Part shown: one piece after another, positions 42,322 through 51,299 of the stretch
How positions within the stretch are numbered: position 1 is the first letter of the stretch
Layout: every line of letters starts with the position of its first letter
Source: Anaerobutyricum hallii
GTDB taxonomy: Bacteria > Bacillota > Clostridia > Lachnospirales > Lachnospiraceae
NCBI RefSeq assembly: GCF_900209925.1
Contig: NZ_LT907978.1
Location: forward strand, 3,257,001-3,321,000
Length of the DNA: 64,000 bases
Reading direction: 5' to 3'
The notes under the pieces: generated by a model
The model's input: the letters and a program-made list of their open reading frames with translations, nothing else
Told to the model about the DNA's origin: nothing
The model's database searches: none
Program-made: the position numbers and the translations under genes

Positions 42322-43047
42322 TTATATATTTTGATAAATGTTTGACTTTGATGAAAAAGGCTGCATCTTTCTTTCTTTCTCAGCTAGCTCAAATATCGGA
42401 TTAATTACTGCTCTATCCTTAACATCAAACTTATACCAACGTTCATCTTCCCCTGGTTTAACATCTGCACTGATACCATTTTTATCCATACTTTCTATAC
42501 CATAGGTAATACCATCATAAAGACTGTACTGCATACCGGATAATAGAATTTTTAATGCTTTGGATTTTGCAGGAGCAAAAGACTGCCCTTTCGTTTTTAT
42601 ATATTGTGCTTTCGGTAAAACTTCTGCTTTAACAGTAATGCTCGTTTCAGCTCTACGATCATACACACCAAACTCGACTTTACAAGCTCTCTTTATAGTC
42701 TGTCCAGGATACATATAAATAAAATTCCGTACGCTCTTACCCCATTGATAACGATGATTACCTACCCATATTTCTCCTTTTTTGGAGGCAGTAGAAGGAG
42801 TGGTATCCTCAAAAGTTACTTTGATTGCTTTTCCTATAGAATTCGTTACATTCAAATAATTTTTCTCATCATCATCCTTTCGTGATAAAGAGACTATTTC
42901 TACATTACCGGTTCTGTCAATGTTAATATTATTTTCACTAGCATTCACCCCGGCATCTGCCATAAACCAGAACCCAAACACCAAAGCACATAACAATAAT
43001 CCCTTCATGAAATAGTTACATATTCGTTTCGTTCTCTCTTTTTTCAT
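42322..43047 (-). CDS. secreted FN3 protein, N-terminal part ending at a frameshift
   Basis: It begins with AGGAGG before ATG 43047 and a signal peptide (MKKERTKRICNYFMKGLLLCALVFGF in two parts; cleavage near VNA). The mature part is beta-rich; the C-terminal DERWYKFDVKDRAVINPIFELAEKE is the start of a pre-peptidase-like (PPC) domain. After three GAAA units the frame goes to KMQPFSSKSNIYQNI and stops. Removing one GAAA unit reads ELAEKERCSLFHQSQTFIKIY and goes on through YYVKIVNNRQ into the 41250-42176 frame, completing the domain. The gene is therefore one of about 590 codons, switched off here by a repeat-length change or by a sequencing error. Confidence 0.75.
   Translation of the reverse strand: MKKERTKRICNYFMKGLLLCALVFGFWFMADAGVNASENNINIDRTGNVEIVSLSRKDDDEKNYLNVTNSIGKAIKVTFEDTTPSTASKKGEIWVGNHRYQWGKSVRNFIYMYPGQTIKRACKVEFGVYDRRAETSITVKAEVLPKAQYIKTKGQSFAPAKSKALKILLSGMQYSLYDGITYGIESMDKNGISADVKPGEDERWYKFDVKDRAVINPIFELAEKERKMQPFSSKSNIYQNI
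42367..42380 (-). repeat. GAAA tetranucleotide tract at the frameshift
   Basis: The plus strand reads CTTTCTTTCTTTCT: three GAAA units on the coding strand plus a partial one. Loss of one unit restores the reading frame of the FN3 protein. Confidence 0.7.
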
Positions 43048-43172
43048 AATGATCCCTCCTGTTTATTCTCCAACGAAGTTGCGGGAGTGTCGTTTTTAAA
43101 CCATTAAGTTTTTCTAAGAAAATTATAACAAATATGCTCATTTTTCACCCTGTCCCTAAGTACAGGTTTTCT

Positions 43173-43820
43173 TCACAAAGAAGGGGGATTTTTTTCTGGA
43201 CTGCTTGGAATGATAAAGTTTTTATTGGTGACTGCGATTGCAAGTCGTGTTTTATTGGCATAGCCGGTTTTGGCTAAAATATTGGATACATGAAACTTTA
43301 CTGTTCTCTGGGATATATGCATTCGTTCGGCGATTTCACTATATTCCAGTCCTTCGCAGACGAAGCGCAGCACCTCGATTTCTTTGGCGGTAAGTTCTGA
43401 ACTGTCCGCAAGCCCCAGCTTTACACTCGGTGTTTTATCCGGGAAAATGTGTTCTCCTGCCATTGTTTGTTCTATGACATCAATGAGGTTCTCCGGGCTG
43501 ATATCTTTATACCAGAAGCTGTCAACTTTCGCTTCCTTTGCTCTTTTTAAATAGCCGACTTCAACCATGGAAGTGACGATAATTATTTTTATATCCGGAA
43601 ATTCTGCTTTAATTTCTGCCGCTGCTTCTATACCATCTTTATTCCCGGCTGTACATACGTCCATCAAAATTAGGTCGATTTTCTCCCGTCTGCATACAGC
43701 AAGCGCAACATCTGCTCCATTTACACTGGCGGAAAGTGCGTATTTCCCACTATCTAAAAGTATTCTTTCCATATTTTCTCGAGGCATCCTCTGATCCTCT
43801 ACGATCAATACCTTTTTCAT
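43173..43820 (-). CDS. NarL/LuxR-type response regulator
   Basis: A 215-residue transcription factor. The receiver domain has MKKVLIVEDQRM, the phospho-acceptor Asp in LILMDVCTAGNKDG, the conserved Thr/Ser in IIIVTSM and the Lys in FWYKDISPENL. The C-terminal LuxR helix-turn-helix is ELTAKEIEVLRFVCEGLEYSEIAERM (in parts) with ISQRTVKFHVSNILAKTG. It overlaps the histidine kinase stop by 4 bp (ATGA) and is the last gene of the three-gene signalling operon. Targets are unknown. A weak hairpin CCTGT...ACAGG follows before the FN3 gene. Confidence 0.93.
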   Translation of the reverse strand: MKKVLIVEDQRMPRENMERILLDSGKYALSASVNGADVALAVCRREKIDLILMDVCTAGNKDGIEAAAEIKAEFPDIKIIIVTSMVEVGYLKRAKEAKVDSFWYKDISPENLIDVIEQTMAGEHIFPDKTPSVKLGLADSSELTAKEIEVLRFVCEGLEYSEIAERMHISQRTVKFHVSNILAKTGYANKTRLAIAVTNKNFIIPSSPEKNPPSL

Positions 43821-45106
43821 TCTTCCTCCTTACTCTCCCTCTCCTTTTGAAATGTTATTGTCAATGCAAAATACGGCATGGATTGTATATGCATTTCCCC
43901 ACTATAATCAAATATATGCCGGGAAAGGTTATATAGTCCTCCTTTGGGAACAACTTCTTTTTCCGGCGCCACCCCATTATTTGTAATACGAATACGATAA
44001 AAGTCTTTATTTTCCTGCATTGCGATAGAAAGTTCGGTCGCACCGGCGTGACAGACGCCATTCGTCAGGCACTCTCTCATAGCAAGTATATATATATTGG
44101 CGTACTCTTCGTTCTTTGGCAAAGAACCAAGGCACTCTATCTTTACGCCAAGCGTTTTCGCATCCTGCAGAAATCTTTCAAATTCTCCTTCATCCAATGG
44201 GTACTGATTATCGTTCCAGATTGCATTTACCGCCTGACGGAGTAATCTGACCGCATCGCTGTAATCTGCACTCTCCTGCATTAAGCTCTGCCGGATAGCC
44301 GTCAGTCCCGCTCCCATCTGATCATGCAGCTTTGTCTTCGCGGCAAGCACTTCTCTTTCCCTTGTCAAGATCAGTACATTGTCCGAAAGATAGCGGAGTT
44401 CTTTTGAGATTTTTTTTAACTTTTCCGTCTGCTTTGTCAAATTTATTTTTTCATGATATTGCTTTGTAATATCCATAAAAACAGCTTCTGTATACACATT
44501 TCCATCGCTATCTTTTACTTCATTTTCCTGGTAATCCCACGCCTTTCCATCAGGAAAAAGGTACATCTCTTTTTTATCCGTGAGTCTGGTCACACCATTT
44601 TGCGTACTCGTATAAAGAGCATCCCGCAATTCGCTGAGTTTCTGCAAATCTTTATGCGCAAGAACCCGGAAAAGCCGATACATCTGTGTATTGGCAAGCT
44701 TCACTGCACCATTGGAATTAAAATAGCAAATGCCTATCGGAAGGAGATTCATCGCTTCTTGGATCGAATTCCGTCCCACTTGCTCCTTTGTTATCCTTCT
44801 CAGCCGGATACCTTCCCAGATAAGTAAAAAATCAATAATGCCGACAATGCACCAGATTACCCAGATTGGAACAGGCAACACTTCATAATAGTTTCCTCCC
44901 TTATCTATCTGCCCAAATGAATACGCCAGATGATTCAACAGGAAAAACAAGAATAAAAATGCAAGAATATTCCAATGCCACTTCTTTTTATCTATCCGCA
45001 TATCATGAAACATAAGAAGCAAAAATAAGGTAACGATCAAACTGAGCAGCACCGCTGTCATTAACAGCGTCTGCATTACCTTATATGAAAGATAGAATGT
45101 CTGCAT
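43817..45106 (-). CDS. sensor histidine kinase (HisKA_3-like)
   Basis: A 429-residue membrane kinase. Three helices (LLMTAVLLSLIVTLFLLLMF, ILAFLFLFFLLNHLAYSF, IWVIWCIVGIIDFLLIW), then a PAS-like domain (LLPIGICYFNSNGAVKLANTQM...). A coiled coil leads into the phospho-acceptor region KLHDQMGAGLTAIRQSL (His-Asp-Gln), and the ATPase part has AMRECLTNGVCHAGATEL (N-box) and ITNNGVAPEKEVVPKGGLYNL (G-box). It should phosphorylate the response regulator encoded next. It overlaps both neighbours, so the three proteins are made together. Confidence 0.88.
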   Translation of the reverse strand: MQTFYLSYKVMQTLLMTAVLLSLIVTLFLLLMFHDMRIDKKKWHWNILAFLFLFFLLNHLAYSFGQIDKGGNYYEVLPVPIWVIWCIVGIIDFLLIWEGIRLRRITKEQVGRNSIQEAMNLLPIGICYFNSNGAVKLANTQMYRLFRVLAHKDLQKLSELRDALYTSTQNGVTRLTDKKEMYLFPDGKAWDYQENEVKDSDGNVYTEAVFMDITKQYHEKINLTKQTEKLKKISKELRYLSDNVLILTREREVLAAKTKLHDQMGAGLTAIRQSLMQESADYSDAVRLLRQAVNAIWNDNQYPLDEGEFERFLQDAKTLGVKIECLGSLPKNEEYANIYILAMRECLTNGVCHAGATELSIAMQENKDFYRIRITNNGVAPEKEVVPKGGLYNLSRHIFDYSGEMHIQSMPYFALTITFQKERESKEEE

Positions 45107-46827
45107 TACTTTTCACCTGCCTTTTTCACAGTAAATGTAAATTTCCATACACCTTCTTCACACTCGCCTTTCTCTGTCTTGTCAAAAAATGAGCTCAGAT
45201 TCGCTTCACTTTCTACTTCCATACAAACAATCAGTTCTTCTCCACAAGGACGAATCTTCACCCACATAAACTGAATAGAATCCACGCTGGCTTCTACTAT
45301 TGATTCAAAAAAGCTATAAATACGAACCGCATCCCGCACATAAATGCGCTCGCCCGCAGGAGCAGTCAGGGCACATTCTATCCCCATTAACTTCAAACTG
45401 CTAAAAGACTCTTCCAGACAGGCTCCAAGTTCCGCAACATCGGATATCTCTGCTCTTTCTCCAATAAAAATCAAATTTCCATATCTTTTTATGTATGTTC
45501 CGATCACACTGATCTTCGCAAGCAGCCTGCGGCTCTTTACCAGATCTTCCTCCACTTCGTATCGGCTAAGCAGCTCATTTAACAGCCCGATCTGTCCGGC
45601 AGTCTGCGTCTGTAACTTATCATATAAACGATTCTTTTCCCGTAGCATATTAATCTTTGCCTTTGTCTGATAATTCTCCTGTTCCAGACAATTACTCTCC
45701 TCTATTGTTTTCCTGTTCTCTTCCATTCTTTCAAGCAGCATAATAATATATTCAATATCTTCCTGCCATAAAATATGTCCACCCTGAATCGGTCTGTTTT
45801 GGATCAGCGTCTTCTTATCAACAACAACTTCTCCCTTCTCCGCTTCCCTCATCACCGCTTTCGAAAGCTCCATTGCATTAGCAGAAGTATACCGGACACG
45901 ATAATTTCGATCCGTAATCTGCGCTCCCATCGTACATACTTCAAATAGTTCTTCATACCCCGTATTCGTCTGAATCAGCCCACAGTAAATACAGCTCTCA
46001 AATATACATACAAACAGCAGGCATAACGCCGCTGTAATATCTCCACCAATAACCTGCATCCACTCTGCACCGCTTGCATAAATAATCGCATAAAGAATAG
46101 AAATACCGATTCCAATCACCGGCAAATACTTCTTTCTCTGAGACAGCCGGCACTTATAAACCATTAAAGCAAACGCAGCCACCGCGCAGACAACTTCCCA
46201 CAACAGCACAGTATAATATCCCCACGCATAGCTGTAGCCTTTATCCGTCCATACCTCTCCTGCCGCAAAAGAAAACACACACTGATGAAAATCATTTGAC
46301 AATACCAATAAAAAACAGAGCGTTGTAGGAACATATAAAAACTTTAACCACTTCGGCAAAATGTACTCTTCCGGCTGCCCAAGCAGAACTGCTGTCTGTA
46401 CCGCCGCCTGCGGAATAAACAGCATCGGCAGGTAATAGCTGTACCATAAATAACGCTCTACATTTACATCCATCGCAAAAAAATACTTTATACTGCGTAC
46501 AACAAACCAGAAAATCATTAACCCCGATATAAAAATCAGTGTATTTTTCGCCGCTTTTTGAACGACCCGCTTATGAATACTGATTCCCCACCCAATATAT
46601 AATCCAATATATATCAAGGTTCGTAAAATCCCCCAAAAAAGATATCTAGGGCTTACCTTCCCTACAATACGGCATAGCAGCGCAGCGATAACCAGCCCCG
46701 CAAAAATAACTTGATTCCAATTCCTTTGTTTTTTCTGTTGTATTTGTTCCTGTGGTTGTTGTTTTCGTTGTGTTTGTTTCCGTTGTTTTTGTTGTTTCTG
46801 TCGTACTTTTTGCATCACAGCGCTCAT
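45106..46827 (-). CDS. polytopic membrane sensor with degenerate kinase-like tail
   Basis: About 573 residues from the ATG at 46827 (AAAGGAAG upstream; the frame is open to 46872). A Gln/Lys-rich cytosolic N-terminus (KQQKQRKQTQRKQQPQ) is followed by about eight hydrophobic helices (for example VIFAGLVIAALLCRIV, TLIFISGLMIFWFVVRSI, YYTVLLWEVVCAVAAFAL, ITAALCLLFVCIFESCIYC). The cytosolic tail has a coiled coil and an ATPase-like shape (LLNELLSRYEVEEDLVKSRRLL, RIYSFFESIVEASVDSIQF), but I find no phospho-accepting His motif nor a glycine-rich nucleotide lid. It probably senses a signal and partners the HPK encoded next rather than acting as a kinase itself. Confidence 0.65.
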   Translation of the reverse strand: MSAVMQKVRQKQQKQRKQTQRKQQPQEQIQQKKQRNWNQVIFAGLVIAALLCRIVGKVSPRYLFWGILRTLIYIGLYIGWGISIHKRVVQKAAKNTLIFISGLMIFWFVVRSIKYFFAMDVNVERYLWYSYYLPMLFIPQAAVQTAVLLGQPEEYILPKWLKFLYVPTTLCFLLVLSNDFHQCVFSFAAGEVWTDKGYSYAWGYYTVLLWEVVCAVAAFALMVYKCRLSQRKKYLPVIGIGISILYAIIYASGAEWMQVIGGDITAALCLLFVCIFESCIYCGLIQTNTGYEELFEVCTMGAQITDRNYRVRYTSANAMELSKAVMREAEKGEVVVDKKTLIQNRPIQGGHILWQEDIEYIIMLLERMEENRKTIEESNCLEQENYQTKAKINMLREKNRLYDKLQTQTAGQIGLLNELLSRYEVEEDLVKSRRLLAKISVIGTYIKRYGNLIFIGERAEISDVAELGACLEESFSSLKLMGIECALTAPAGERIYVRDAVRIYSFFESIVEASVDSIQFMWVKIRPCGEELIVCMEVESEANLSSFFDKTEKGECEEGVWKFTFTVKKAGEK

Positions 46828-46905
46828 GTCACTTCCTTTACTGAATCGTATCGTCCATCTCTTAAGATTCATTGTACTATATTTATATTTTTCTGCACAG
46901 CAAAA

Positions 46906-46943
46906 AAGAGAGCACCTCGACTACTATTCTAGATGCTCTCTCT
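46906..46943 (-). terminator. terminator of the repeat-bearing transcript
   Basis: The minus strand reads AGAGAGCATC...GGTGCTCTCTTTTTTG: an 8-bp or longer stem, then six T. It is about 80 bp before the sensor gene start, so it could also work as an attenuator for that operon. Confidence 0.85.
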
Positions 46944-47641
46944 AGTAATTTGAATTTTCAATTATGTCCAACGGACTATACCTCCTGTTTCCCTTTTAAC
47001 TTTAAGCTAACCATCCACAGTTTGTATTGTAATCAGTCATTCCTTCTATCTTCTACAAAAGGATTATGATTCTTAATACACTTACTTCTGATTCCTTAAA
47101 ATCTCCGGTCATATGATTCATCTCAACTTTGGGCGATTATTCCTTTGAATTCTAAGCTGATTCCTAGATTCTTCAATTCTTCTTCCTACTACTACCTAAA
47201 GTGCTATCTATCTGATATTATCACTCACAATCTTCGAATCTTTAAATCTGCAATCTCACTTAAATTCTAAAACTTATGTTTTTGTTGGTCCGTACCTCCT
47301 GGTTTAGTATCGTTTCTTAAATCTTAACTTAACTGTTTGGTGGTCTGTACCTCCTGCTATAGTATCGTTTCGAGTCTTAGCTTAAGTTTTTGTTGGTCCG
47401 TACCTCCTGGTTAGTATCGTTTCTTGAATCTTAACTTAACTTTCTGGTGGTCTGTACCTCCTGTTATAATATCGTTTCCTAAATAAAAATTATGTTTTTG
47501 GTGGTCTGTACCTCCTTCTGACTTATTTAAATTCTGAAATTAATTTTAATCTGTTTGCACTCTCACCTCTTTTTCATGATAAAAGCAAAACCTCTAATTT
47601 CAAAATCTATATGATGGACTGTGCCGTCCGTTCTTTGTTTA
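46944..47641 (-). ncRNA. roughly 740-nt transcript with tandem GGAGGTAC repeats (sRNA or leader)
   Basis: A perfect promoter (47649-47677) and a terminator (46906-46943) bound this stretch, which has no frame of note. It holds the five 54-bp repeats described separately and a degenerate sixth GGAGG site at 46973-46986. Near its 3' end is a tiny possible ORF, MTDYNTNCGWLA (start about 47043), without a good ribosome site. It may be a free RNA or the leader of the sensor operon at 46827, which also seems to have its own -10 region (TATAGT, about 46880). Confidence 0.55.
47287..47516 (-). repeat. five tandem repeats, period 54 bp, with Shine-Dalgarno-like core
   Basis: The core AGGAGGTACrGACC appears on the minus strand at 47503-47516, 47449-47462, 47395-47408, 47342-47355 and 47287-47300, that is at steps of 54, 54, 53 and 55 bp. 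The linkers between cores share GAAACGATAnTA, and the remaining bases are AT-rich and variable. No start codon lies at a fitting distance after any GGAGG, and the linkers contain stops in all frames, so these are not ordinary small ORFs. Confidence 0.85.
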
Positions 47642-47648
47642 TGTCTGT

Positions 47649-47677
47649 ATTATAATGCAGAGTTCTTATTTTGTCAA
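47649..47677 (-). promoter_or_regulatory. perfect consensus sigma-A promoter
   Basis: On the minus strand TTGACA (47672-47677), exactly 17 bp, TATAAT (47649-47654). This is the best promoter in the window and points into the repeat-bearing region. Confidence 0.85.
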
Positions 47678-48084: not shown

Positions 48085-48206
48085 AACAGACAAAAGAATT
48101 TCCTATTATACTCATTGTAATGTGAGAGCAAGAGAAGGATGCTTTCTGGCATTCTTCTCGCTGTGATATCTTTACAATGAGTATAATAGGAAATTCTTTT
48201 GTCGTA
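48085..48206. repeat. large palindrome, B-like variant
   Basis: Arms 48089-48120 and 48172-48203 are 32-bp perfect complements (GACAAAAGAATTTCC...). The inner hairpin GAGAAGGATGC-tttctg-GCATTCTTCTC is also complete. It lies 27 bp after the Mrr-like gene stop on the minus strand. Confidence 0.9.
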
Positions 48207-49530: not shown

Positions 49531-51204
49531 CTAATGAGCTACATCATTATCAAGGGCTGCGATTCCTGTTTCATTTGTTCGGATTCTTACTACATTTTCT
49601 ACATCATAAAGGAAGATCTTACCATCGCCGTACTCGCCAGTGTAAAGTGCTTTCTTTGCGGCTTCTACAACTAATTCCGGTGGTACTGTAGATACGACAA
49701 TGTCTACCTGAAGCTGTGGCAGAAGGTTCATATCAATCTTAACACCACGATACTGTCCAGTTTTTCCTTTCTGTGTTCCACAACCCATTACATGGGATAC
49801 TGTCATACCGGTTACACCAATCTGGCTCATGGCATCTTTTAAAATGGCAAAACGGTCTTCTTTACACATAATTGTAAGTTTTGTATAACGTCCGCCAGCT
49901 TCTTTTGCACCGCCGATGATTGGAGCGAGTTTTTTGTCTCTTAAGTCGGTTACATCGATTGTTTCTGTTGTTACACCGCCCATTGTTGTTGCGGAAATTG
50001 GAAGGAAGTCGGCGTATGCTGATGCAAGATCATGTTCTGCGATATCAAGTCCCATGATTTCTTCTTCTGCACTGACACGAAGTCCTATTGTATGTTTAAG
50101 AATTGTAAATACGATTGTCATTGCGACTGCTGTGTATGCTGCGATACATACAACACCAAGTACCTGTACTCCAAGCTGGTGGAATCCGCCACCATAGAAT
50201 ACACCATTGTTATAATCGAAAAGTCCGACTGCTACTGTACCCCAAAGACCATTACATCCATGAACGGCTACGGCACCTACCGGGTCATCAATTTTTAATT
50301 TCTGGTCAATAAATTCTACAGCTATTACTACAAGGATACCATCAACAAGTCCGATAATTGTTGCACCAACGGCATCTACATTCGCACAGCCGGCTGTGAT
50401 ACCTACAAGACCTGCTAAAGAAGCATTCAGACACATGGAAACATCAGGTGCTCCATTTCTGATCCATGTAAACAGCATACAGGCAAAAGTTGCTACTGCC
50501 GGTGCGATAGTTGTTGTTCCAAGAATCTGTGCTAACTGTGTAGGATCCGATGCTGCTGCACCGTTGAATCCATACCATGCAAACCATAAGATAAAGCATC
50601 CAAGTGCACCAAGTGTAAGGGAATGTCCCGGAAATGCATTTACAACAACTTTTCCATCTTTTCCTTTTGTATATTTACCAATACGAGGTCCAAGCATTGC
50701 GGCACCGATAACAGAAGCAATACCACCAACCATATGAATTACAGAAGAACCTGCAAAATCAACATAGCCTAATTTTGCGAGCCATCCTGCACTGTTCCAT
50801 ACCCATCCAGCTTCAATTGGGTATACGATTGCACTGATAACTGCGGAATAAATACAATATGTAGAGAACTTTGTTCTTTCTGCCATTGCTCCGGAAACGA
50901 TTGTTGCGGCTGTTGCACAAAATACTAACTGGAAGAAGAAATTGGACCAGTCAAAGTTTGCGAAGTCTGTGAACATCTGATATTCCGGTCTTCCGATCAG
51001 TCCAAAGAAATAATTTTCACTGTTCATAATCCCGTAACCAAGAACGAAGAATACGACCGTTCCAATACAGAAGTCCATCAGATTCTTCATAATGATATTT
51101 CCGGCATTTTTCGCTCTGGTGAATCCTGTTTCCACCATCGCAAAACCACACTGCATAAAAAATACTAATACTGCACCTAAAAGGTACCAAACACTCATAT
51201 CCAT
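49531..51204 (-). CDS. amt: ammonium transporter fused to a PII signal domain
   Basis: A 557-residue protein from the ATG at 51204 (TTAGGAG upstream; the frame is open to 51267). Residues 1-400 form the Amt channel with about eleven helices: WYLLGAVLVFFMQCGFAMVETG, the pore region GSSVIHMVGGIASVIGA, FPGHSLTLGALGCFILWFAWYGFN (in parts) and AVHGCNGLWGTVAVGLFD with the pore His. After a linker, residues about 445-557 form a PII (GlnB/GlnK) domain: YTKLTIMCKEDRFAILKDAM, the T-loop VMGCGTQKGKTGQYRG, LLPQLQVDIVVSTVPPELVVEAA and GKIFLYDVENVVRIRT. PII normally blocks Amt as a separate protein; here sensor and channel are one chain. Confidence 0.93.
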   Translation of the reverse strand: MDMSVWYLLGAVLVFFMQCGFAMVETGFTRAKNAGNIIMKNLMDFCIGTVVFFVLGYGIMNSENYFFGLIGRPEYQMFTDFANFDWSNFFFQLVFCATAATIVSGAMAERTKFSTYCIYSAVISAIVYPIEAGWVWNSAGWLAKLGYVDFAGSSVIHMVGGIASVIGAAMLGPRIGKYTKGKDGKVVVNAFPGHSLTLGALGCFILWFAWYGFNGAAASDPTQLAQILGTTTIAPAVATFACMLFTWIRNGAPDVSMCLNASLAGLVGITAGCANVDAVGATIIGLVDGILVVIAVEFIDQKLKIDDPVGAVAVHGCNGLWGTVAVGLFDYNNGVFYGGGFHQLGVQVLGVVCIAAYTAVAMTIVFTILKHTIGLRVSAEEEIMGLDIAEHDLASAYADFLPISATTMGGVTTETIDVTDLRDKKLAPIIGGAKEAGGRYTKLTIMCKEDRFAILKDAMSQIGVTGMTVSHVMGCGTQKGKTGQYRGVKIDMNLLPQLQVDIVVSTVPPELVVEAAKKALYTGEYGDGKIFLYDVENVVRIRTNETGIAALDNDVAH

Positions 51205-51299
51205 ACTTTTCACTCCTAACTTTTTTTTGCAGGTCTTTCCTGCTTTTTCAAGAAAATGCTTTTTCACTCGCGAAGTGTTTTTATTTTATAAATTTCTAT

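Follow-up and report, generated by a model that had tools for sequence, protein, structure and literature searches.

The RNA locus and its neighborhood

The window, a stretch of 64,000 nucleotides of the Anaerobutyricum hallii genome, carries on its minus strand a predicted RNA gene bounded by a promoter and an intrinsic terminator (Table 1). The promoter is the only one with a complete match in a list of eight promoter-like sites, with 6.5 such sites of any quality expected. Downstream of it lie five box cores, AGGAGGTAC[A/G]GACC, which start at 47516, 47462, 47408, 47355, and 47300 and are spaced 54, 54, 53, and 55 nt apart. The perfect promoter, the five regularly spaced cores, and the terminator of the preliminary description are all confirmed in the sequence. 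Two boxes had been missed at first reading, a degenerate one 55 nt upstream (box 0) and a sixth core at 46986, about 300 nt beyond the fifth. The earlier statement that no start codon follows the cores accordingly holds for the five and fails for the sixth, which has TTG and a nine-codon ORF behind it. Including the sixth core, AGGAGGTAYRGWCC is matched exactly six times; the expected number is 1.26 even if two mismatches are tolerated, and none of 100 shuffles reached six. No other such cluster exists in the 3.5-Mb genome; single-mismatch matches to the core elsewhere number five, versus 14 for a reversed control pattern, and neither a near-exact partner nor a common target motif elsewhere in the genome rose above control.

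Table 1. Features of the RNA locus in the window
Feature	Positions	Strand	Remarks
Promoter TTGACA-17-TATAAT	47649..47677	-	12/12 match; predicted +1 near 47642
Whole RNA, ~740 nt, predicted ends	46902..47642	-	promoter-to-terminator span; DNA homologues in congeners
5' hairpin GGAC-GGCACA-GTCC, then ATNATATAGATT	47616..47629	-	stem unchanged in 13/13 aligned congeneric leaders (invariance, not covariation)
Leader stem TAGATTTTGAAATTA / TAATTTCAGAATTTA around box 0	47528..47609	-	predicted by RNAalifold
Box 0, degenerate A-box GAGGTGAGAG	47545..47575	-	GAGG at 47569, 55 nt before box 1
A-box 1	47490..47520	-	Shine-Dalgarno; start-codon position CCA; TAA at codon 4
A-box 2	47436..47466	-	start-codon position CCA; TAA at codon 4
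A-box 3	47382..47412	-	start-codon position ACA; TAA at codon 4
A-box 4	47329..47359	-	start-codon position CCA; TAA at codon 4
A-box 5	47274..47304	-	start-codon position ACA; TAA at codon 4
Central region	46990..47264	-	no exact core in window; an additional box close to the 3' end in at least ten congeners
B-box (sixth core), Shine-Dalgarno AGGAGGTATAGTCC	46973..46986	-	only R3 match in genome at E <= 0.1 (1.8e-4)
Micro-ORF TTG GAC ATA ATT GAA AAT TCA AAT TAC TAG (MDIIENSNY*), 9 codons	46942..46971	-	behind B-box
Intrinsic terminator	46902..46941	-	stem starts at base right after micro-ORF stop codon

The leader stem around box 0 comprises 14 pairs, none broken and one with a two-sided change across 13 leaders (RNAalifold); a pattern search did not find a leader of that kind in 8 of 21 congeneric loci. 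Box 0 reads GAGGTGAGACCACC in most relatives, where it lies partly within a GGUG/CACC hairpin. At the other end, the terminator is an 11-pair stem with one G-U pair (46941-46907), a 13-nt loop, and TTTTTT; a simple terminator scan omitted it, as loops were allowed only up to 8. Among 22 congeneric loci, the window included, 21 have TTGACA..TATAnT ahead of the first box, and the remaining locus (L037) is cut by a contig end. No ORF of at least 50 amino acids was found inside the RNA on its own strand. Judged from its sequence, the locus is a stand-alone RNA gene, essentially non-coding and with predicted expression, which supports the discrete RNA first proposed. Its layout matches no described RNA, as had been suspected: no Rfam 15 family scores above its gathering threshold over the RNA in the window or in 14 further loci, two sub-gathering matches at E <= 0.5 overlap the end regions of loci L294 and L296 (0.028 and 0.026), and a search of the open-licence literature by title and start of abstract found no description of the RNA.

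An Mrr-like gene is present on 18 of 21 congeneric stretches, and on most of them the opposite flank of the RNA carries M14 or M17 peptidase genes. Ten neighbors scanned against Pfam comprise Mrr, Amt-PII, M14, M17, a 7TM region (below cut-off), response regulator, RsmF, and CBS matches and two proteins without a match; a ToxN-like nuclease gene was not found among them. In the window, positions 42322-46872 encode a 7TM sensor whose HisKA_7TM match falls just short of the cut-off, a LuxR-type response regulator, and two proteins that match no Pfam family, one of them kinase-like. None of the other loci compared has this cluster between the RNA and the M14 peptidase, and it therefore looks like an insertion. 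The RNA had been considered a potential leader of this signaling operon. The four operon proteins were not found on the 21 congeneric stretches (tblastn, 1e-10), and because they are absent beside the RNA in relatives, the RNA is not a leader of the kinase operon; the opposite orientation of 28 of 100 downstream genes in the family likewise speaks against a leader. Between the Mrr-like gene and the RNA is a perfect 29-nt inverted repeat (48092-48120 and 48172-48200, 51 nt apart), possibly a small transposon-like element. The window further contains an ammonium transporter fused to a P-II regulator domain (49531-51267) and a drum RNA (RF02958; 14320-14431, minus strand, 87 bits).

Box sequences and the terminal micro-ORF

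The A-box is a conserved segment of about 32 nt with the logo GAGGTAC[GA]G[A/t]CCACC[AG][AG]AAACnTAA (220 distinct boxes), preceded by A-rich AAGAAAR. Its reading frame is set by alignment to the start codon of the B-box, and in this frame it reads CCR RAA ACN TAA, with ACA taking the first position in window boxes 3 and 5; a stop stands at codon 4 in 169 of the 220. An A-box forming the end of a longer ORF was rejected, as in-frame upstream starts occur in 53/220 for the TAC frame versus 45/220 and 39/220 for the other two. The box sets were collected with A-box queries, so that similarity among A-boxes is conditioned on the search; the pitch, the micro-ORF, and the terminator lie outside the A-box pattern. 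Across 37 aligned repeat units the consensus structure has at most 2 pairs (RNAalifold), and the predicted folds of single units have energies of -4.3 to -6.7 kcal/mol, the GG being in a weak stem. Hairpin units were rejected on account of these weak folds, leaving a linear motif.

The linker GAAACGATA, first reported behind each core, follows four of the five window cores and is variable in other genera. AAACGATAYTA recurs right before the next box in the linkers of L057, L135, L191, L217, L252, L253, and the window, and so in several genera. Pairing of linker ACGATAC with GTATCG of 16S rRNA was taken as chance: it covers 6 nt, falls in the stem of helix 45, and disappears in CTATA variants.

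The B-box has the consensus GAGGTAnAGTCCA[A/T]TGGA[C/T] (137 distinct boxes). Its start codon is ATG in 91, TTG in 38, and GTG in 8, its stop codon is TAA in 67, TAG in 51, and TGA in 19, and 135 of the 137 ORFs have at most 8 sense codons; the commonest peptides are MDSIV (14) and MDEIV (13). The extended box is specific to the RNA, given that the B-box model (R3) finds this locus alone in its own genome at E <= 0.1. Among 52 distinct five-codon ORFs with aspartate as second codon, pairs one nucleotide apart differ synonymously in 40 cases and non-synonymously in 13, with 40 of the 53 changes at codon position 3; the pairs are non-independent, and GAT/GAC wobble contributes much to the count. 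Among congeners the last ORF varies by whole codons through in-frame 3-nt indels (MEIIEHV, MEIIIEH, MDIIVEQ, MDIISEQ). As far as sequence comparison can tell, the micro-ORF is under coding-like constraint.

Complementarity to the 16S rRNA tail

The 16S genes of the genome read GGATCACCTCCTTTCT, with the 3' end GGCTGGATCACCTCCTTTCTAAGG, and AGAAAGGAGGU is a perfect 11-nt complement of this tail. Many A-boxes have the form GAAAG-N-GAGGU, both halves of which are complementary to 16S with one bulged base. The median predicted energy of Shine-Dalgarno:anti-Shine-Dalgarno pairing is -13.9 kcal/mol for A-boxes (n=236) and -11.1 for B-boxes (n=133), compared with -10.1 for genes of the window (n=46, best of the first four ATGs) and -3.6 for random 22-mers (n=1500). 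Within the window, box 1 reaches -14.0, boxes 2-5 -11.7, and the B-box -13.1 kcal/mol; pairing of window boxes 2-5 and of B-boxes is not above that of good ribosome binding sites of genes. A-boxes are, by complementarity and predicted energy, strong Shine-Dalgarno sequences, mostly with CCR where a start codon would be, and the earlier suggestion that full Shine-Dalgarno cores could bind 30S subunits is thereby supported indirectly. The 16S pairing accounts for AGAAAGGAGGU only. About 15 further A-box bases (ACRGACCACCRRAAAC.TAA) are conserved beyond the Shine-Dalgarno, and these could serve a second ligand.

Spacing of the boxes

Boxes were called by weight matrices at 0.006 false calls per kb in a set of 192 transcripts, with exact duplicates removed, near relatives retained, and neighbors considered up to 450 nt apart. 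The 281 adjacent spacings include none below 46 nt, 2 at 46-49, 145 at 50-58, 24 at 59-79, and 110 at 80 or more. For the 57 transcripts with at least three boxes, 121 of 194 spacings fall at 50-58 nt, versus a mean of 20.7 (maximum of 1000 runs, 35) under a null in which the end boxes are fixed and the inner boxes placed at random with a minimum of 33; a single spacing in these transcripts falls at 33-49, versus a null mean of 45.3 (minimum 29). The pitch is shared by A-A, A-B, B-A, and B-B neighbors, with 44 of 141 AB, BA, and BB spacings at 50-58 nt. Transcripts carry up to 11 boxes, and 48 of the 192 have a single one.

A pitch of this kind can arise by tandem duplication. Linkers of close boxes resemble each other beyond shuffled ones (median identity 0.625 versus 0.558), and 53 of 152 close pairs reach an identity of at least 0.70, versus 4 of 152 when shuffled. 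Duplication as the whole cause of the pitch was rejected: it is true in part, for Anaerobutyricum and for loci of the L090/L201 type, and it is opposed by the 99 of 152 pairs with linkers below 0.70 and by the mixed box types. On these comparisons, part of the pitch appears to be inherited by duplication, which would explain neither the lower bound nor the mixed types.

Distribution in the genus and family

DNA homologues of the RNA are present in 21 of the 23 other genomes of the genus, and the two genomes without one are 75 and 78% complete. One congeneric contig, G017:C67, has exactly the sequence of NZ_ACEP01000108.1 from Anaerobutyricum hallii DSM 3353, which identifies the genus as Anaerobutyricum. 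The congeneric loci carry 1 to 9 boxes by the weight matrices, with close neighbors 53-59 nt apart and one unit of 52. Some of these pitches are not divisible by three, so that a single reading frame cannot span the units. The refuting condition named at the outset, homologues that preserve ORFs rather than the repeat spacing, has a split outcome: relatives keep the spacing, and they also keep one micro-ORF, that of the last box.

Homologues were sought with a model of the repeat unit, as proposed at the outset. R1, a sequence-only model built from 32 sequences, has matches at E <= 0.001 in 140 of 397 genomes of the family, representing 123 of 334 genera, and 257 genomes are without a match. 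In genomes G190, G331, G396, G413, and G072 the R1 matches lie on several contigs or far apart, and paralogous copies may exist. One contig of a viral collection (L260:10860-11100) holds a complete short copy of the RNA, with two A-boxes, an MDIQEQH micro-ORF, and a terminator; this locus also has a FuFi-1 RNA and is perhaps a provirus with host flank.

A scan of titled genomes with the A-box pattern gave 115 loci. Among the 80 titles listed for them, the names given to genus level (Roseburia, Coprococcus comes, Blautia, Eubacterium ramulus, Mediterraneibacter, and others) are ones that we take to be Lachnospiraceae; other titles read simply Clostridiales, Clostridiaceae, Eubacteriaceae, or bacterium. 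In 97 of the 115 loci, a promoter-like site occurs no more than 350 nt ahead of the boxes. The usual layout is a promoter, at least one A-box, a variable middle, a B-box, and a terminator. The first box lies near the 5' end, at a median of +60 in the 172 of 192 transcripts with a recognized promoter. The middle region looks very different between genera, as judged by eye among the loci listed. In 71 of the 115 loci, a start-containing box is followed by a short ORF that stops -6 to +9 nt (mostly -4 to +2) from a hairpin with a T run; this count follows a strict pattern, and at least two of the 71 (L191 and L217) look like internal boxes. Across the family, the RNA shares its strand with the downstream gene in 72 of 100 cases and with the upstream gene in 54 of 106.

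A related RNA in other Clostridia

Two further models, R2 (built from 60 A-boxes) and R3, extend the search beyond the family. In the order, R2 matches 29 of 295 genomes, namely 28 family members (the window's own genome included) and G629; in the class it matches 6 of 291, three outside the family. R3 matches 26 of 391 genomes of the class, 20 of them outside the family. A draw of 299 genomes from the phylum gave three with matches, and the one outside the class is an ordinary gene. Ten of the 20 non-family genomes with R3 matches were examined and the RNA is in eight (G853, G895, G897, G962, G978, G999, G1016, and G1049); the matches in G829 and G1003 are ordinary genes. Loci L278, L287, L289, and L267 were dropped as ordinary genes or as lacking a box. 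With a 451-base RNA as query, 9 of 16 genomes of one other family match, including G1033 and G951, in which the RNA was not delimited by the patterns used.

The related RNA is about 200-510 nt long and begins with a promoter and a box with a start codon at about +10. The ORF of this first box is mostly three codons long (MRK, MKS, MYR, MEE, or MRI; MY in one), and locus L268 encodes MFR three times at a pitch of 45-46 nt. A hairpin and then ATATAGAT, comparable to the Anaerobutyricum leader, is present in most of 12 RNAs of other Clostridia, and the last box encodes MLDIKSEQK or near variants. In an alignment of 12 transcripts from 12 genomes and five families (seven genomes from one family), all 12 have the last stop codon within the stem of the terminator, and one TGA-to-TAA change is compensated on the opposite arm. 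A middle helix, CCUUUUG/CAAAAGG, also has two-sided changes. The RNAs are taken as homologous because MDIISEQ of Anaerobutyricum resembles LDIKSEQK. The two forms probably share a common origin, with that of other Clostridia as the older one, and the A-box would derive from a micro-ORF box through loss of the start codon; both the homology and this direction of change are inferred from sequence resemblance.

Ribosome docking as a proposed mechanism

The RNA may be a stand-alone transcript with repeated ribosome docking sites, placed about one ribosome footprint apart, a reading to which we assign a probability of roughly 0.6. It is the simplest account of four features taken together, namely the Shine-Dalgarno strength, the lack of start codons, the minimum spacing of ribosome size, and the terminal micro-ORF. 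In each box, the Shine-Dalgarno would pair with the 3' tail of 16S rRNA. At A-boxes, with CCR or ACA in the start-codon position, a 30S subunit would dock and be unable to initiate, and at the last B-box a ribosome would initiate, translate a few codons, and terminate where the terminator hairpin begins. On mRNA, a 30S subunit reportedly covers about 54 nt, from -35 to +19 (a value ascribed to Huttenhofer and Noller, 1994). Spacings are proposed to be rarely below 50 nt because 50-58 nt is about the space of one 30S subunit, such that all boxes could be filled together. The boxes, their Shine-Dalgarno complementarity, the spacing rule, the micro-ORF constraint, the promoter and terminator, and the placement of the stop codon are computed features; production of the RNA in quantity, binding of 30S subunits, and the output of the RNA are what we infer. 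Points against docking are the roughly 15 conserved A-box bases left over by the 16S pairing, the ordinary pairing strength of window boxes 2-5 and of B-boxes, the 110 of 281 spacings of 80 nt or more, the 48 of 192 single-box transcripts, the 257 of 397 genomes without an R1 match, and the 45-46 nt pitch of locus L268, outside the family. Confidence in docking is also slightly lowered because the linkers are more alike than chance.

We know of no RNA built as a row of ribosome-sized, start-less docking sites. A close parallel is the STAB-SD of cry3A mRNA in Bacillus thuringiensis, which PMC4113751 describes as a start-less Shine-Dalgarno near the 5' end that is considered to bind 30S. According to PMC4113751 and PMC3997798, a start-less Shine-Dalgarno can retain a 30S subunit and protect the RNA. 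The A-boxes resemble it in being start-less Shine-Dalgarno sequences, the first of them close to the 5' end, that can pair with 16S by sequence and predicted energy. They differ in that cry3A has one site, located in a protein gene's leader, whereas here a stand-alone RNA carries one to many sites, often at fixed pitch, together with a terminal micro-ORF and some 15 additional conserved bases. In Staphylococcus aureus, the extended Shine-Dalgarno sites described in PMC13009471 share the long helix with the anti-Shine-Dalgarno; these are initiation sites of genes and extend toward the start codon, whereas the extension here is toward the 5' side (AGAAAGGAGGU).

Very short ORFs are also a feature of minigenes, of which lambda bar is one. 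Another is mg2 of axe-txe, a mini-ORF, that is, a tiny ORF able to act in cis according to PMC8708949. The first box of the RNA in other Clostridia, mostly M-x-x-stop, is similar. Unlike these minigenes, which are located in or before protein-coding genes, the ORFs described here are building blocks of an RNA that is otherwise non-coding, and a start codon is absent from most boxes in Lachnospiraceae.

Alternative explanations

Docking could act in trans or in cis. We tentatively favor stoichiometric titration of 30S subunits or initiating ribosomes in trans over self-protection in cis because one 5' box suffices for protection, and the boxes are multiplied, most of them start-less; such titration would demand very many copies of the RNA. 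The alternative within docking, that the boxes are solely cis-stabilizers in the manner of STAB-SD, seems somewhat less likely. Parked ribosomes would keep RNase J and other nucleases off the RNA, whose structured or variable middle would do its work by pairing with other nucleic acids or binding a protein. The stabilization of Gram-positive mRNAs by a start-less Shine-Dalgarno near the 5' end, as PMC4113751 and PMC3997798 report it, fits this role, as do the 5' position of the first box and the two-sided changes in the middle helix of the non-Lachnospiraceae form. It would, however, make box multiplication, the pitch rule, and the terminal micro-ORF superfluous, and the divergence of the middle between genera speaks against it.

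Sponge RNAs of the CsrB/RsmZ type carry several copies of a GGA motif, and a sponge typically repeats a single motif along its length. The RNA shares the multiple GGA-containing motifs, and a decoy for an RNA-binding translation repressor that recognizes GAGGUACRGWCC, as CsrB is for CsrA, would account for conservation reaching about 15 nt past the Shine-Dalgarno. We nevertheless regard a protein decoy as unlikely. The motif is not common to other genes of the genome, as the single-mismatch counts indicate, and a small ligand would have no need of a minimum spacing near 50 nt on a conserved box of this length; the spacing fits a large ligand. The specific case put forward initially, a CsrA sponge, is contradicted on two counts. 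CsrA-type GGA motifs in exposed hairpin loops are not what the boxes present, having the GG in a weak stem and no conserved hairpin, and csrA itself was not found: PF02599 has no match in the own genome and none above the family cut-off in 24 genomes of the genus, the own included. Two sub-threshold matches lie inside frames of about 300 amino acids, and the controls in E. coli, B. subtilis, and T. maritima were positive.

The abutment of stop codon and terminator invites a reading as an attenuator, in which translation of the micro-ORF opens the overlapping terminator and transcription runs into the next gene. The stop codon abuts or enters the stem in the 71 of 115 loci of the strict pattern and in all 12 transcripts of the older form, and the next operon in the window begins about 30 nt downstream on the same strand. 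Attenuation is very unlikely all the same, with the downstream gene on the opposite strand in 28 of 100 cases and, within the genus, varying among an M14 peptidase, a convergent M17 peptidase, and the kinase operon. Tandem repeats between a promoter and a terminator are similar in outline to a tandem DNA operator array or to the RNA antitoxin of a type III toxin-antitoxin system. Either is scarcely credible here, as the Pfam-scanned neighbors include no toxin-like family (two of the ten being without a match), the boxes are strand-specific, lie within the transcript, and end in a micro-ORF, and in 99 of 152 close pairs the linkers are less than 0.70 identical.

Implications

The RNA may represent a class of ribosome-parking RNAs in Clostridia, a suggestion as tentative as that of titration, in which abundant transcripts with start-less Shine-Dalgarno sites and a single micro-ORF at the end would accommodate one 30S subunit per box, next to one another, and so tune the pool of free ribosomes. 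If docking is true, it would constitute a new control of the free 30S pool or a new way to armor an RNA, found in an abundant bacterial family of the human colon. The RNA would then provide a test case for Shine-Dalgarno pairing without initiation, and its box pitch would be a natural ruler for the footprint of the 30S subunit on mRNA in living cells.
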